A stretch of DNA of 64,000 nucleotides from Campylobacter canadensis (lineage in GTDB: Bacteria > Campylobacterota > Campylobacteria > Campylobacterales > Campylobacteraceae): positions 186,001-250,000 of the forward strand of contig NZ_CP035946.1 of assembly GCF_013177655.1 (NCBI RefSeq), given 5' to 3'. A program made the position numbers and the translations under genes. Numbering within the stretch: the first letter of the stretch is position 1; each line of letters begins with the position of its first letter. The notes under the pieces were generated by a model. It searched no databases, was not told the DNA's origin, and saw only the letters and a program-made list of their open reading frames with translations. This document shows, piece after piece, positions 19,695 to 32,546 of this stretch.

Positions 19695-20702
19695 TTAATA
19701 TTTACTAATAATTTTATTTTTGAAAAAAAAGTAAGAAAGAGTAGAAAAAATCAAAAATATTGAGATAATAGTGTAAATATGAAACTTACTAAGCACTAAA
19801 GCAAGTGAAAAATAAAGCATAAAAAATATAAATAAAGCAGGATATAAAAACGATTTTTCATATCTTGAGCTAATTATACTAAAGGATAAAACATATTTAA
19901 AGGCACATAAAGGTAACAAACTTAAAATAGAGTAAATTATTAATTCTTTAGATTTTGATGGGTTTTTATAATCTTTCCAGTATTCTAATACATTTTGAAT
20001 ATCTGTATTTTGCTTACTTACTTGTGTATTAAAATCTAAATTAGCAATTTTATTTATATAAAGTGTATTTTGAAAGATATATTGAGTAACATCGTTTAGT
20101 TTTAAACTTATACTGTTATCTTGAGCTATTATTTTTGCTGATTTTGCAAAGATTATTTGCTCATCTTCTTCTTTGCTTTTTGCTTTATAGATTGTGATAT
20201 CTTTGTAAATTCCGTTTTCTTCACTATTTGTTAGATAGATTAAATTACCAATTTTTTGTCCGTAGCCGTGTGTTTTAAGATTTATTTTAGAAAAGGCTTT
20301 TTTGTAATCTAAAAAATTATCGTACAAAGAAAAAGAAATAGGAATAAAAATTAAGGTTATTAATAACAAGATAAAGCTAACAATAAAGGATAAATAACAA
20401 AAGAATTTAGAAATAATTTTAGGCGAATAACCTAAAGAAAATAACATTATTAGCTCATTTTCCTTGCTTAAATTAAGGCAAGAAATTCCACAAGCAAGTA
20501 AAAAAGAAATAGGAAAGGTAAATAAAATTAATTTTACCCCCATTAAAGAATATAATTTAAATAAATCATATAAAGATAATTCAATATATGAAGTAAATTT
20601 TGTAATTTGAAACAAAATTATTATTGATGAAATTAAAAATAAAGTTATAAAAATTGACAAAAATGAAGCAGAAAAATGCTTAAATAAATATCTATAAACC
20701 AT
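19695..20702 (-). CDS. lptF: LPS export permease LptF/LptG family (LptF-like)
   Basis: Membrane subunit of the LptB2FG transporter that extracts LOS from the inner membrane. About 335 residues: three N-terminal membrane helices (to about 120), a periplasmic beta-rich domain (about 135-245) and three C-terminal helices. The phrase NELIMLFSLGYSPKIISKFF is the coupling-helix region of the family. A TTG at 20711 would add three residues; I chose the ATG at 20702. Either start overlaps the end of the prepilin peptidase gene. A second family member (lptG) is at 37522; calling this one LptF is by elimination. Confidence 0.78.
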   Translation of the reverse strand: MVYRYLFKHFSASFLSIFITLFLISSIIILFQITKFTSYIELSLYDLFKLYSLMGVKLILFTFPISFLLACGISCLNLSKENELIMLFSLGYSPKIISKFFCYLSFIVSFILLLITLIFIPISFSLYDNFLDYKKAFSKINLKTHGYGQKIGNLIYLTNSEENGIYKDITIYKAKSKEEDEQIIFAKSAKIIAQDNSISLKLNDVTQYIFQNTLYINKIANLDFNTQVSKQNTDIQNVLEYWKDYKNPSKSKELIIYSILSLLPLCAFKYVLSFSIISSRYEKSFLYPALFIFFMLYFSLALVLSKFHIYTIISIFLIFSTLSYFFFKNKIISKY

Positions 20703-21483
20703 AAAAACCAAGCATCCATTCTGCTAAATTAGGAAAAATATAAATTAAGGCAAAAGCTATGCTTAAAAAAGGAATGAAAGGTAATTCAATATTATTTTTT
20801 CCACTAAGTTTTACTACAAAAAACACAGGCAAAGAAATAATAGCCGCTAAAAAAACAGCACAAAAACCATAAGAGATTTTATCTAATATACCCATAATAG
20901 CAATAATTTCAATATCTGCTTCGCCCATTACCTGAATACAGTCTTTTTCATCTTTTTTCATATTTATAAAGGCTTCTAGTATTGATTTTAGCAAATAAGC
21001 TGCTCCTGCAAAAAACAAGATTTGATTAAATGTTTGCAATGAAAAATTAGCAACAAAAAATAAAAGTAAGGTAAAAACTAAAAGAAGATGCGGTACAGCT
21101 AAATATTTAATATCTATTATGCAAAGTGCTAATAATAAAGCAAATGCAATAGCTAAAAGGCAGGTTTTTGCTAAAAAATAAAGATTAATTTCTTCAATAT
21201 TTTTAAAGCAAAAAAAGAAAATTAAAGCGCAAATAAACTCAATAACAGGGTAAATAAAACTTATTTTTTCTTTACAAAATGCGCATTTTCCACCAAGCAT
21301 AATCCAACCAAAAATAGGTACATTATGATAAAACTTAAGTTGATTTTTGCATTTTACACAAGCACTTGGCGGGTAAAAAATACTCATTTTATTAGGTAAT
21401 CTATAAATTAATACATTCAAAAAAGAGCCAAAACAAGCTCCAACAATACAAGCTAGAATTTGAATAAATAAAATTATATCCAT
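20692..21483 (-). CDS. Prepilin peptidase (type IV leader peptidase, A24 family)
   Basis: Cleaves and usually N-methylates type IV prepilins and pseudopilins at the inner membrane. 263 residues. Seen are GACFGSFLNVLIYRLP, the two CxxC pairs of the N-methylase loop (Cys42/45 and Cys67/70), and the two catalytic aspartates in IIDIKY (Asp124) and GEADIEI (Asp190; more often GxGDxK). About seven to eight membrane helices. C. jejuni has this gene in the same uppS neighbourhood. A likely substrate, the pseudopilin gene at 31015, is also in this window. Confidence 0.9.
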   Translation of the reverse strand: MDIILFIQILACIVGACFGSFLNVLIYRLPNKMSIFYPPSACVKCKNQLKFYHNVPIFGWIMLGGKCAFCKEKISFIYPVIEFICALIFFFCFKNIEEINLYFLAKTCLLAIAFALLLALCIIDIKYLAVPHLLLVFTLLLFFVANFSLQTFNQILFFAGAAYLLKSILEAFINMKKDEKDCIQVMGEADIEIIAIMGILDKISYGFCAVFLAAIISLPVFFVVKLSGKNNIELPFIPFLSIAFALIYIFPNLAEWMLGFYGL

Positions 21484-27240: not shown

Positions 27241-27968
27241 GAAAAATCTTATTAATATTAAGTTCTATTTATTTATTTGCAAATGAAATTTATGCTTCAT
27301 TTGATGTTATCGCTGATAAAAGCTCAAAATTAGCTTTAAGTGCTGGTGGAGTTGTAAGTAAGATTTATGTAGATGTTGCAAGCAAGGTAAAAAAAGGCGA
27401 TTTGTTATTGGAGCTTGATAGCGATATAGAAGAAATTGCATTAAAACAAGCAAAAAGCGAATATGAATTAGCAAAAATTGGTTTTGAGCATGCTAATAAT
27501 ACTTTAAATAGATATTTGCAAGTAAAAAATGTAATTGATGAGCAAAGCTTAGAAAGCATAAAGGCAAAACAAGAAGAATTTCAAACAAGATTAAATACCG
27601 CACAAATTAATATTTTAAGATACGAAACAATGATAAAAAAGAAAAAACTATATGCTCCATTTAGTGGGGTTATTAGTGCAAAATTAGTTGAAGTTGCTGA
27701 AGGTGTTGGTGGAGTTATGCAGCCGTTATTTGTGCTTGATTCTTATCCAAAAGTAAAACTTTTATTAAGTTTTGATGAAAAATATAAAGATTTAGTAAAA
27801 ATAGGAGATAGTTTTTCTTATCAAGTAAATGATAAAAAAATGCAAGGTAAAATTAGTAAAATATATCCTAATATTGATGTGAAAACAAGAAAGGTTTATG
27901 CAGAAGTTGATGCACAAGATTTAAGCATTGGCTTATTTGGAGAAGGTTATATAAAGGTGGGTGAATAA
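27237..27968 (+). CDS. cmeE: RND periplasmic adaptor, CmeE-like
   Basis: Membrane-fusion protein bridging CmeF and CmeD. 243 residues, short for an adaptor but matching CmeE. Signal peptide 1-20; biotinyl-lipoyl halves at GGVVSKIYVDVASKVKKGDLLLELD and APFSGVISAKLVEVAEG flank a short helical hairpin (about 65-130); beta-barrel domain to the end. The ATG overlaps the cmeD stop (ATGA), and its own stop overlaps the cmeF ATG by one base. Confidence 0.87.
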   Translation: MRKILLILSSIYLFANEIYASFDVIADKSSKLALSAGGVVSKIYVDVASKVKKGDLLLELDSDIEEIALKQAKSEYELAKIGFEHANNTLNRYLQVKNVIDEQSLESIKAKQEEFQTRLNTAQINILRYETMIKKKKLYAPFSGVISAKLVEVAEGVGGVMQPLFVLDSYPKVKLLLSFDEKYKDLVKIGDSFSYQVNDKKMQGKISKIYPNIDVKTRKVYAEVDAQDLSIGLFGEGYIKVGE

Positions 27969-30900
27969 TGCTTAAAATTGCTATTAATAGACCAATAACA
28001 ACCTTAATGTGCTTTATTTCAATGTTGCTTTTTGGTTGGATTTCTATTTTTACAATGCCTGTAAATTTATATCCTAGCGTTGATATTCCTTTAATTAAAA
28101 TTACAACCTATGCTAACGCTGATTTAGAATATGTTGAATCTCAAATTACAAAAAAATTAGAAAACGCAGTTTCAAGTGTTAGTCAAATAGAAAGAATTAA
28201 TTCAAAAAGTTTTAACAATCTTAGCATTATTGTAGTTCAATTTAAATTAGGCAAAGATTTAGAAGTAGCAGCAAATGATATTAGAGAAAAAATTAGTAAG
28301 GTCAAATTAGAATTTAGTCCTAGTGTTGAAAAGGTTTCATCTGATGCAGGGAGTATTTTAAATATTTTTTTACAAAATAAAACAAATAATATAAGTACTT
28401 TTATGCAAGAAGTTGATGATGATATAATCCCTGATTTTCAAAGAATTGATGGGGTTGGAGAAGTAAAAAGCATAGGATTTTTAAAAAATGATATAAAGAT
28501 TGAGCTTGATATTGATTTATTAAATAAATACCATTTAGATGCCCTAGATGTAAGTAAATTAATAAAAATGCAAAATTTTAAAAGCTATTTAGGGGAATTT
28601 ACAAATAACAAACAAGAAATTACTCTAAAAGGTTATTTTGATGCAAATACAATATCTGAATTAGAGCAAATTAGACTAGCTCCAGGCGTGTTTTTAAAAG
28701 ATGTTGCACAAATTAGCGAAAGTATTATTAAAAAAGATTCAAGTGCTGTTTTTAACTCTAAAGAAGGAGTTTTGCTTGAGATTAAAAAAGTTCAAAATTA
28801 TGATACTTTAAAGGCAATTAAAAATGTAGAAAATAAGCTAAATTCAATTAATAATAAATATAAAGATGTTGAATTTAATGTAGTTTATAATAAGGCAAAT
28901 AATATCACAAAACATATTAAGCAGGTTGTTTTTGATATGATTTTGGGCGTTATTTTAACTGTTATTATAGTATTTTTATTTTTAAGAAATATTAGCGCAA
29001 CAATAATTGCAAGTATTGCTATACCAACTTCAATTATTTCAAGCTTTTTTTTAATAGATTTATTTGGCTATGATTTAAATAGATTAACCTTAATTGCTCT
29101 TACTTTAGCAATAGGGATTTTTGTTGATGATGCTATTGTTGTAATTGAAAATATTAGTAAAAAAATTCATAGTGAAAAAAATCCGCTTTTAGCTTCGTAT
29201 GCTGGTGCTAAAGAGATTATGTTTTCAGTTTTTAGTATTAGTATTGTTTTGCTTTGTGTGTTTATTCCAATTTCTTACATGAATAGTATTCCAGGTTTGT
29301 TTTTTAATACTCTTGGAATGAGTGTTGCTTTTGGGGTTATTATTTCATTTTTAGTATGTATATTTTTAATACCAACTATTAGTGCTAGATTTTTAAATAC
29401 AAATGAAAGTACTTTTTATAAAAATACAGAGCCTTTTTTTGAAAAATTAGAAGATTCTTATGTAAAAATATTAGATTTTGTATTAAGAAAAAAAGCAATA
29501 AGTATTGTTTTTGTATTGATTTTATGTTTTGGTGGATTTTTACTTGCGCCTAAAGTTGGGCTTGATTTTTTACCTATGGAAGATGATAATGAAGTGCAAG
29601 TGCTGCTTGAATCACAAAAGGATTTATCGCTAAATCATATGCAAGAACGTTCTTTAAAGGTTTTAGAAGAAATTAAAAAGAATGAAAATGTAGAATTTGC
29701 TTACTTGCTAGTAGGATACGATGATGCAAAAGATAGAAAAAAAGCAAAAATTTATGTAAAGCTTAAAAAATTAGAAGATAGAAAAATAAGACAAAATGCC
29801 GTAGTAAAAGAGCTAAGACAAACTATAAAAGCACAAGATATGAAAATAAAAGTTTTAGAGCTACCTAAATTTGAGGGTGCTGGGGTTGATGAGCCTGTGC
29901 AGTTTGTTTTATTAGGCGATGATATTAAAGATTTAAAAGAAGCAAGTTTAAGAGCGCAAAAGGTTTTAAAAGAGCTTAATGGTGTTGTTGATGTTGGAGA
30001 TGATGTTGATGCTTTAATGGATGTTTTAGCGATTAATATCAACAAAGAAAAGGCAAGAAAATTAAATGTTAATTTAGTATCTTTAGCGCAGGTTTTACAA
30101 TCATCTTTTGCAAATGTAAAGGTTGGAAGTATTGATGCTAGTAAGAATTCTCAAGATATTTATTTAAGTTTAAGCGAAAAAACTAATGCGCAAGTCTTAG
30201 AAAAAATAAATATAAAAACTCTTGATAATAGTTTTATTACACTTGGTTCTATTGCTGATTTTACACTTATTAAAGATAATTCAAGCATAAATAGGCTTGA
30301 TAGACAAAAATCAATAAAGGTTACAAGTGGTGTTGATAGACTTTCTTTAGATGCTGTTAAAAAGCATTTAGAATCAAATATTGATTATATTTTAGGCGAT
30401 AAAGTAAGTTATACTTTTACAGGTTTTATAGATTTATTAAAACAAACAATTATTGGCTTTGGTGTTGTACTTGCATTGGCGTTTTTGCTTATTTATTTAG
30501 TTTTAGCAGCGCTTTATGAGAGTTTAATAGTGCCTTTAGTAATTATGCTTACAATGCCACTTGCATTCGCAGGAGCTTGTGTTGGGCTTTATTTAACTTC
30601 GCATCCTTTTTCATTATTTGTATTAATTGCATTAATTTTGCTTTTTGGTATGGTTAGTAAAAATGCAATTTTATTAATTGATGTTGCAAATAAATTATGT
30701 GATGAAGGAATGCCTTATGAACAAGCTTTAAAAATAGCAGGAAAAAGTAGAATTCGTGCTATTTTAATGACTACAATTGCTATGATTTTTGCTATGCTTC
30801 CACTTGCACTTAGCAAAGGTAGTGGCTATGAAGGAAATTCGCCTATGGCAATAGCTATTATTAGCGGTTTAATAAGCTCAACAATTTTAACATTATTTAT

Positions 30901-30976
30901 AATACCAGCTATTTATGGTGCTGTTTATAAAATTGATAGAGCATTAAAAAGAATTTATAAAAGAGAGCTTATATAG
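27968..30976 (+). CDS. cmeF: RND multidrug efflux transporter, CmeF-like
   Basis: Proton-driven inner-membrane pump of the AcrB/HAE family. 1002 residues: helix 1 (about 10-30), two large periplasmic loops and twelve membrane segments. The proton-relay Asp pair is visible in TM4 (AIGIFVDDAIVVIENIS), and a second-half family phrase is MVSKNAILLIDVAN. The substrate range cannot be read. CmeF in C. jejuni contributes to resistance alongside CmeABC; no regulator gene adjoins here, and transcription seems to come from the fliP side. Confidence 0.92.
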   Translation: MLKIAINRPITTLMCFISMLLFGWISIFTMPVNLYPSVDIPLIKITTYANADLEYVESQITKKLENAVSSVSQIERINSKSFNNLSIIVVQFKLGKDLEVAANDIREKISKVKLEFSPSVEKVSSDAGSILNIFLQNKTNNISTFMQEVDDDIIPDFQRIDGVGEVKSIGFLKNDIKIELDIDLLNKYHLDALDVSKLIKMQNFKSYLGEFTNNKQEITLKGYFDANTISELEQIRLAPGVFLKDVAQISESIIKKDSSAVFNSKEGVLLEIKKVQNYDTLKAIKNVENKLNSINNKYKDVEFNVVYNKANNITKHIKQVVFDMILGVILTVIIVFLFLRNISATIIASIAIPTSIISSFFLIDLFGYDLNRLTLIALTLAIGIFVDDAIVVIENISKKIHSEKNPLLASYAGAKEIMFSVFSISIVLLCVFIPISYMNSIPGLFFNTLGMSVAFGVIISFLVCIFLIPTISARFLNTNESTFYKNTEPFFEKLEDSYVKILDFVLRKKAISIVFVLILCFGGFLLAPKVGLDFLPMEDDNEVQVLLESQKDLSLNHMQERSLKVLEEIKKNENVEFAYLLVGYDDAKDRKKAKIYVKLKKLEDRKIRQNAVVKELRQTIKAQDMKIKVLELPKFEGAGVDEPVQFVLLGDDIKDLKEASLRAQKVLKELNGVVDVGDDVDALMDVLAININKEKARKLNVNLVSLAQVLQSSFANVKVGSIDASKNSQDIYLSLSEKTNAQVLEKINIKTLDNSFITLGSIADFTLIKDNSSINRLDRQKSIKVTSGVDRLSLDAVKKHLESNIDYILGDKVSYTFTGFIDLLKQTIIGFGVVLALAFLLIYLVLAALYESLIVPLVIMLTMPLAFAGACVGLYLTSHPFSLFVLIALILLFGMVSKNAILLIDVANKLCDEGMPYEQALKIAGKSRIRAILMTTIAMIFAMLPLALSKGSGYEGNSPMAIAIISGLISSTILTLFIIPAIYGAVYKIDRALKRIYKRELI

Positions 30977-30994
30977 CAATATTTTTTGCTATAT
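30971..30994 (+). terminator. Hairpin after cmeF
   Basis: Perfect 9-bp stem (30971-30979 with 30986-30994) and 6-nt loop spanning the cmeF stop codon. It has no downstream T-run, so it may act weakly or protect the mRNA 3' end ahead of the pseudopilin gene. Confidence 0.4.
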
Positions 30995-31014
30995 AAATTC
31001 GCAAAAAGGATTGT

Positions 31015-31545
31015 ATGAAAAAAGCTTTTACCCCGATTGAAGTAATTATAGGAATTATTATTTTAGGCATAATTTCAGTTGTTGCTGTGCCTGCTAAAAT
31101 GATGGAAATATTATTTGCAGTTATTATTTTAGGTATGCTTGCTGCAGTATCAATTCCAAGGTTAAATAAAACAAGAGAAGATGCTATTTTAACTAAGGCT
31201 AGTGCTAATATTAAAACCTTAGTTCAAGATGTACAGTCTTATCATAATTTGCATAATGATGATAAAGTAGATATTACAAAAATGAGCAATGTAGGTCTTC
31301 GCAAAGAAAATAATATTTATTATTTTGATGTTGAAAAAGAAGATTCTTGCTTAAGCGTTGAACAAAAAGAAGAAAGCTTAAAAATAAAAGCAAAAAAAGT
31401 TGATGGAAAAAAAGATAAATTATGCAAAGAATTTTTACAAAGTCAAAATGCCAAAGCCATTTTAGGAGATTTGCTTTGTGAGGATACTTGCAAAGAAGAA
31501 AAGAGTGTAGAAATAAACACAAGTGCAAATAAAATAACTTGGTAA
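31015..31545 (+). CDS. Type II/IV pseudopilin-like protein with duplicated N-terminal helix
   Basis: 176 residues. MKKA|FTPIEVIIGIIILG has a prepilin cleavage site before Phe5 with Glu at mature position 5. A second, similar hydrophobic block (EILFAVIILGMLAAVSIPRL, 31-50) follows with an exact 22-residue offset: Glu9/Glu31, Gly18/Gly40, Pro26/Pro48. A normal pseudopilin has a single such helix running straight into a segment like LNKTREDA. The C-terminal part (about 51-176) is Lys/Glu-rich with a Cys pair near the end (CEDTC). It probably belongs to a pseudopilus or competence-type system and would be processed by the peptidase encoded at 20692-21483. Preceded by AAGGA; placed downstream of cmeF and convergent with ruvB. 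Confidence 0.8.
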   Translation: MKKAFTPIEVIIGIIILGIISVVAVPAKMMEILFAVIILGMLAAVSIPRLNKTREDAILTKASANIKTLVQDVQSYHNLHNDDKVDITKMSNVGLRKENNIYYFDVEKEDSCLSVEQKEESLKIKAKKVDGKKDKLCKEFLQSQNAKAILGDLLCEDTCKEEKSVEINTSANKITW

Positions 31546-31569
31546 AAGCCCTAAAATAAAACAGGGCTT
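31546..31569. terminator. Hairpin between pseudopilin gene and ruvB
   Basis: 7-bp perfect stem (31546-31552 with 31563-31569), 10-nt A-rich loop, starting immediately after the pseudopilin stop and overlapping the ruvB stop. It may work in both directions, though T-runs are short. Confidence 0.5.
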
Positions 31570-32546
31570 GATAGTTTTAATAAAATGTAAGCTTTTTTAG
31601 TTGCCACTCTTCCTTTTGCACTCTTTTCAATATAATTATTTGCTAATAAATAAGGTTCAATCACATCTTCAATAGTTCTTTCATCTTCACTTAAAGTTGC
31701 TGCAAGAGTGTTTAAACCAACAGCCTTTTTAGCCTTGCATAAAAAATCAAGATATTTTAAATCAATCTCATCAAGCCCTAATTCATTTACGCCTAAAGCA
31801 ATTAAAGACTCGTGAGCCCTTTTTTTTGTAATTATTTCTTCATTATTTACAAGAGCAAAATCTCTTACTCTTTTTAATAATCTTAAAGCTATTCTAGGAG
31901 TGCTTCTACTTCTTTTTGCAATCTCTAAAGCAGCATCTTCATTACATTTAATATTTAATTTTATAGCAGCTTTATAAATTATTAAAGCAAGTTCTTCGTC
32001 TTTATAAAATTCTAAGCGAAAATTAATTCCAAATCTATCTCTTAAAGGCGTTGAAATCCCACCACTTTTAGTTGTTGCTGCTATTAAAGTAAAGCGATTT
32101 AAATCAATTTTTACTGTTTGAGCAGCTGGCCCACTACCAATAATAATATCAAGGCGAAAATCTTCCATCGCAGGATACAAAACTTCTTCAATAGCAGGGC
32201 TTAGACGGTGAATTTCATCAATAAATAAAATATCCCCTTGCTCAAGATTAGTTAAAATTGCAGCTAAATCCCCACTTTTTTCAATCATTGGTGCTGCAGT
32301 TGTTTTTATATTTACGCCCATTTCACTCGCAATAATATTTGCTAAGGTAGTTTTACCAAGCCCAGCAGGTCCAAAAAACAAACAATGATCTAAACTTTCA
32401 TTCCTTAATTTTGCAGCTTTAATAAAAACTTTTAGATTTTCTTTTATTTTTTCTTGACCTATGTAATCATCAAAATTTAATGGTCTTAAGCCTTGTTCGT
32501 AATTTTCATCAGGCTTAAATTGTTCTATTTCTACTAATCTTTGCAT
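31551..32546 (-). CDS. ruvB: Holliday junction branch migration helicase RuvB
   Basis: ATP-driven motor of the RuvAB complex. 331 residues. N-terminal AAA+ domain with [19 protein letters not shown], Walker [15 protein letters not shown], Walker [11 protein letters not shown], sensor 1 [13 protein letters not shown] and arginine finger PLRDRFG; then the C-terminal winged-helix domain with [20 protein letters not shown]. It stands alone on the minus strand, divergent from the Hpt gene. Confidence 0.97.

Follow-up and report, generated by a model that had tools for sequence, protein, structure and literature searches.

A pilin-like gene of Campylobacter canadensis with two homologous hydrophobic helices at its N-terminus

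The defining feature of pilins is a single hydrophobic helix, which acts both as the membrane anchor and as the core of the filament. In prepilins, this segment comprises 20-25 hydrophobic residues, and the leader lies inside and the head outside according to the positive-inside rule (PMC10191384, PMC4471445). A hydrophobic stretch of 40 residues with a central turn-prone residue can span the membrane as a helical hairpin (PMC8657811). Here, we analyzed a pilin-like gene in a window of 64,000 nucleotides from the Campylobacter canadensis genome. When its product was compared with solved structures, the N-terminal helix regions of geopilin domain 1 (9egp, 2m7g), PilE1 (8pfb) and GspG (5wda) matched it from residue 29 to approximately residues 70-115; in each case the match comprised one helix only, and residues 1-28 had no counterpart. 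The sole structural match of the first helix was weak (MshA, 9lab; residues 3-27, E 0.88). As a natural two-helix pilin, the protein would test whether a doubled stick is compatible with pilin assembly and topology, or whether a pilin of this form leaves the pilus for another role.

The gene and its genomic setting

The gene is located at positions 31015..31545 of the plus strand and encodes 176 residues, as evident from the list of open reading frames, the family alignment and the matches in relatives. The protein starts MKKAFTPIEVIIGIIILGIISVVAVPAKMMEILFAVIILGMLAAVSIPRLNKTRED, opening with MKKAFT, and is directly preceded by the ribosome-binding stretch AAAAAGGATTGT (31003..31014, +), in which AGGA lies 4 bases from the ATG. 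The leader MKKA (31015..31026, +) is short, hydrophilic and Lys-bearing with Ala before Phe, as in type IV pilins, and the predicted leader-peptidase cut between Ala4 and Phe5 falls in a sequence that is also found in single-helix pilins of congeners. In agreement with the preliminary description, only the first helix copy carries a leader and cleavage site. Helix copy 1, defined by comparison of the helices, comprises residues 5-26 (31027..31092, +), and helix copy 2 comprises residues 27-48 (31093..31158, +), where family members align from residue 27 or 28. The pilin body, consisting of the remaining part of α1 and the globular part (31159..31545, +), was delimited by the family alignment, in which it retains the Cys pair of the family (DSCLS... 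KLCKEF) and the KMSNV motif. Two extra Cys residues (LLCEDTC) were present near the C-terminus (31471-31491), and these are mostly lacking in the aligned relatives.

The genome (1.92 Mb, one contig; Campylobacteraceae) contains approximately 17 further pilin-like genes, and the window gene stands alone at its locus, away from the pilin array. The stop of an upstream RND efflux gene (ACR_tran, AcrB-type; 27968..30976, +) lies 38 bases ahead of the pilin start, and a convergent ruvB gene, assigned from the sequence and its wide conservation, is found downstream (31551..32546, -); the nearest named ruvB loci were those of a Campylobacteraceae MAG, Sulfurospirillum arcachonense and Campylobacter gastrosuis. 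No sigma-70-like promoter on the plus strand was listed just upstream of the pilin gene, which may therefore be cotranscribed with the efflux operon. A short inverted repeat (ATAGCAA...TTGCTAT) surrounds the stop of the efflux gene (30973-30993), where no proper terminator was listed. Within the window, a prepilin peptidase identified by domain matches (Peptidase_A24 and A24_N_bact; 20692..21483, -) would cut the leader. Extension ATPases and a platform protein are encoded elsewhere in the genome, and a protein that reads as secretin-like adjoins the ATPase and platform genes.

Other pilin loci of the same genome lie outside the window. At 318-372 kb (contig C1; loci L169, L170 and L171), approximately 12 full-length pilin genes share identical helix DNA and have mosaic 3' parts; flagellin-like genes and a tyrosine-recombinase-like gene (L171:7258-8220, -) are scattered among them, and the whole lies in large inverted repeats, such as 318111-324423 versus 337143-330829 with 99.8% identity. 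This region looks like a repertoire of recombining surface proteins. On both sides of the pilin gene at 1167354 are long tandem arrays whose translation reads LGRLGR or MEWMEW/MDGMDG (L003:357-563 and 2556-2936; approximately 1166-1169 kb).

Relatives of the gene and origin of the extra helix

An alignment of 32 pilins from the same genome, three congeners and some family members revealed that the window gene corresponds to an ordinary pilin with exactly 22 additional in-frame residues after MKKAFT; by this alignment, the insertion comprises residues 7-28 (31033-31098, +). Residues 27-176 aligned with ordinary single-helix pilins of Campylobacteraceae, and the second helix and the body together make up a normal pilin. 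The body matched the paralogue at 354359 of the same genome (E 1e-21 over residues 27-173).

Homologues were searched for in 60 relatives, 153 family genomes, 399 order genomes and 397 phylum genomes, the last of which were queried with a consensus double-helix sequence. No double-helix homologue was found among these approximately 560 distinct genomes of the phylum, in which the window gene alone covers both helices. Nearly all matches in relatives began at query residue 27 or 28, some began at approximately residues 20-23, the region that aligns with the leader of a single-helix pilin, and a few began further upstream through read-through of a stop or a chance frame. Seven hits (G342, G558, G563, G216, G045, G215 and G225) had an alignment that extended into the first half of the query or continued across a stop. 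On inspection, all of them proved to be single-helix pilins, and the remainder of each match was sequence that lies in frame ahead of the start. A scan of genome contigs with the protein gave no matches, nor did searches of plasmids by DNA and protein, and no paper on double-helix pilins was found in the literature searched. The double-helix form, known from one sequence, is a real pilin paralogue that is apparently unique among the genomes searched.

As stated in the preliminary description, residues 5-26 and 27-48 align without gaps at an exact spacing of 22 residues. The two copies (31027-31092 versus 31093-31158) are identical at 39 of 66 bases and at 7 of 22 residues, including Glu9/Glu31, the ILG block and Pro26/Pro48, and the earlier count of about 34 of 54 bases proved exact for Glu9-Pro26 versus Glu31-Pro48. 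The BLOSUM62 score between the copies was 46, compared with a mean of -4 for shuffled sequences, and none of 20,000 shuffles scored as high; among codon shuffles, 39 matches were reached with a frequency of 0.00015. This similarity far exceeds what chance would give between unrelated sequences. Pairs among 21 distinct pilin helices, however, shared 39-65 of 66 bases, so the two copies lie at the bottom of that range; their similarity therefore shows homology of the helices and not recent copying.

The view that the helix was tandemly duplicated consequently stood in one part only: the two segments are homologous pilin helices, but the tandem copying itself was unsupported, as the copies match each other at 39 of 66 bases and each matches the helix of the major pilin of the same genome at 47 of 66. 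A recent tandem duplication was not supported, as the copies are no closer to each other than are the two most divergent of the separate pilin genes compared. Thirty-six of the 66 positions were common to both copies and the major pilin, and only 3 changes were shared between the copies. Copy 1 shares 7 derived bases with the paralogue at 1129977, compared with the 3 that it shares with copy 2. From these comparisons, a fusion between two pilin genes and an old duplication each fit as well as tandem copying. Misassembly by repeated reads was rejected; the copies differ at 27 of 66 bases, and this 41% divergence rules out a simple assembly duplication.

Membrane topology and alternative explanations

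Hydropathy analysis revealed a hydrophobic stretch of 44 residues with two membrane-length segments, which is broken around residues 24-31 and contains Pro26-Ala27-Lys28 in its middle. Because two Lys residues precede helix 1 and Arg49, Lys52 and Arg54 follow helix 2, both ends are predicted to be inside. The preliminary description had offered two readings of the stretch; a double crossing of the membrane fits better, since the Pro-Ala-Lys turn and the positive-inside rule would both favor a hairpin, and a lengthened pilus core found no support. A structure predicted by AlphaFold from the single sequence contained helices at residues 7-23 and 27-79, with a break at residues 24-26, and strands; the model had low confidence (pLDDT 52, pTM 0.32), and a Foldseek search with it gave no significant match, so that only the helix break was drawn upon. 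The most likely arrangement appears to be a membrane hairpin with the head in the cytoplasm, that is, a non-assembling protein and not one that lengthens the pilus core.

Our best overall explanation, which we put forward tentatively, is that the gene is an intact, lineage-specific orphan pilin paralogue with an extra helix, and that a hairpin keeps its product out of filaments. An extra pilin-type helix (residues 7-28) would have been inserted between the leader and the normal helix, either by fusion with the 5' end of another pilin or by an old intragenic duplication. The MKKA leader would direct the chain to the membrane, the prepilin peptidase of the organism can probably cut between Ala4 and Phe5, and the 44-residue stretch would insert as a helical hairpin in an N-in/C-in orientation, with Arg49, Lys52, Arg54 and the pilin head ending up on the cytoplasmic side. 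With its head there, the protein would remain in the inner membrane and would therefore be excluded as a normal filament subunit. Two features argue against the hairpin: the Cys pair typical of a periplasmic head is kept, and helix 1, being less hydrophobic than a normal pilin helix, may not span the membrane.

The alternative that follows most closely, although we consider it somewhat doubtful, is that the gene is a decaying or useless orphan paralogue, in which a chance fusion or duplication broke a pilin and the frame is open only because the event was recent. It is consistent with the isolation of the gene from the pilin array, with the lack of an orthologue in the three congeners and of a pilin beside either flanking gene there, and with a tree of pilin bodies, in which the gene formed a long branch and had no resolved sister. 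The Pfam N_methyl match of 8.9 bits, below the curated cut-off of 21.2 that three paralogues pass, points the same way, as do the Pro at mature position 3 and the loss of FT in the second copy. On the other hand, the open reading frame is intact, residues typical of the family continue to the C-terminus, and the ribosome-binding site is good. In addition, only approximately 2% of sequences kept the frame free of stops when neutral drift after copying within the gene was simulated; if the copies arose in this manner, selection therefore kept the gene, but this argument fails if two genes were fused recently. Equally, a single orphan without conservation may have come about as a side effect of the turnover of pilin genes in a pilin-rich genome.

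The weak hydrophobicity of helix 1 makes a different topology a serious rival, if an unlikely one: helix 1 would lie on the membrane surface and helix 2 would be the usual N-in/C-out anchor, flanked on the cytoplasmic side by Lys28. The head would then be periplasmic behind a second helix that lacks a cuttable leader, and the protein may be an anchored minor pilin or a regulator. The best 19-residue hydropathy sum, calculated without position weighting, was +0.75 in helix 1, compared with -0.70 in helix 2 and -2.85 in the major pilin. Helix 2 and the body form a complete, ordinary pilin stick and head, the low-confidence model shows helix 27-79 as a canonical helix of 53 residues, and the head Cys pair is conserved. 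Against this topology, the three positive charges after helix 2 and the two in the leader favor both ends inside, and helix 1 retains the Glu, the Gly and its hydrophobic character.

We regard it as rather improbable that the hairpin form has acquired a function as a pilin-derived inner-membrane protein with a cytoplasmic head, such as one that regulates or plugs the pilus platform; if true, it would show that pilin topology can be changed by the gain of one helix. Very unlikely is a working pilin whose lengthened hydrophobic stick joins the filament and extends its core. The Glu is indeed kept in both helices, and assembly machinery is present in the genome, but a stretch of 44 hydrophobic residues with a central Pro26-Ala27-Lys28 would be unfit for one span or for standard filament packing, and no such relative occurred in the approximately 560 genomes. 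Least probable of all is translation from Met29 or Met30, which would give a leaderless single-helix protein with the upstream helix untranslated: two Met codons open copy 2, but inspection of the sequence found a Shine-Dalgarno stretch before Met1 and none before Met29 or Met30, which makes this previously suggested short form unlikely, and in addition an open, pilin-like frame runs from Met1, and nucleotides 1-77, including the leader, match the 5' end of one paralogue at 75%. Met1 is most likely the translation start.

Comparison with known pilins

We compared the window gene with the type IVa pilins of Campylobacteraceae, which resemble the major pseudopilin of the T2SS and carry a class III signal peptide and N_methyl (genes at C1:354347, 1129510, 1129977 and 1167354 of the same genome). 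The proteins share the MKKA/G leader before Phe, Glu5 of the mature chain, the ILG block and a Pro that ends the hydrophobic helix. The likeness continues into a homologous body, with R-D/E-DA after the helix, KM(S/T)NV, the Cys pair and a similar length. The window protein has Glu9 at mature position 5 and a second Glu at residue 31. A difference is seen in the hydrophobic region: whereas a pilin is described as having a single stretch of approximately 20-25 residues (PMC10191384, PMC4471445), the window protein has 44 residues in two segments, as its 22 extra residues add another hydrophobic helix ahead of the normal one. Unlike those pilin genes, the window gene also stands alone at its locus, had no orthologue that we could find, and scores below the curated N_methyl cut-off.
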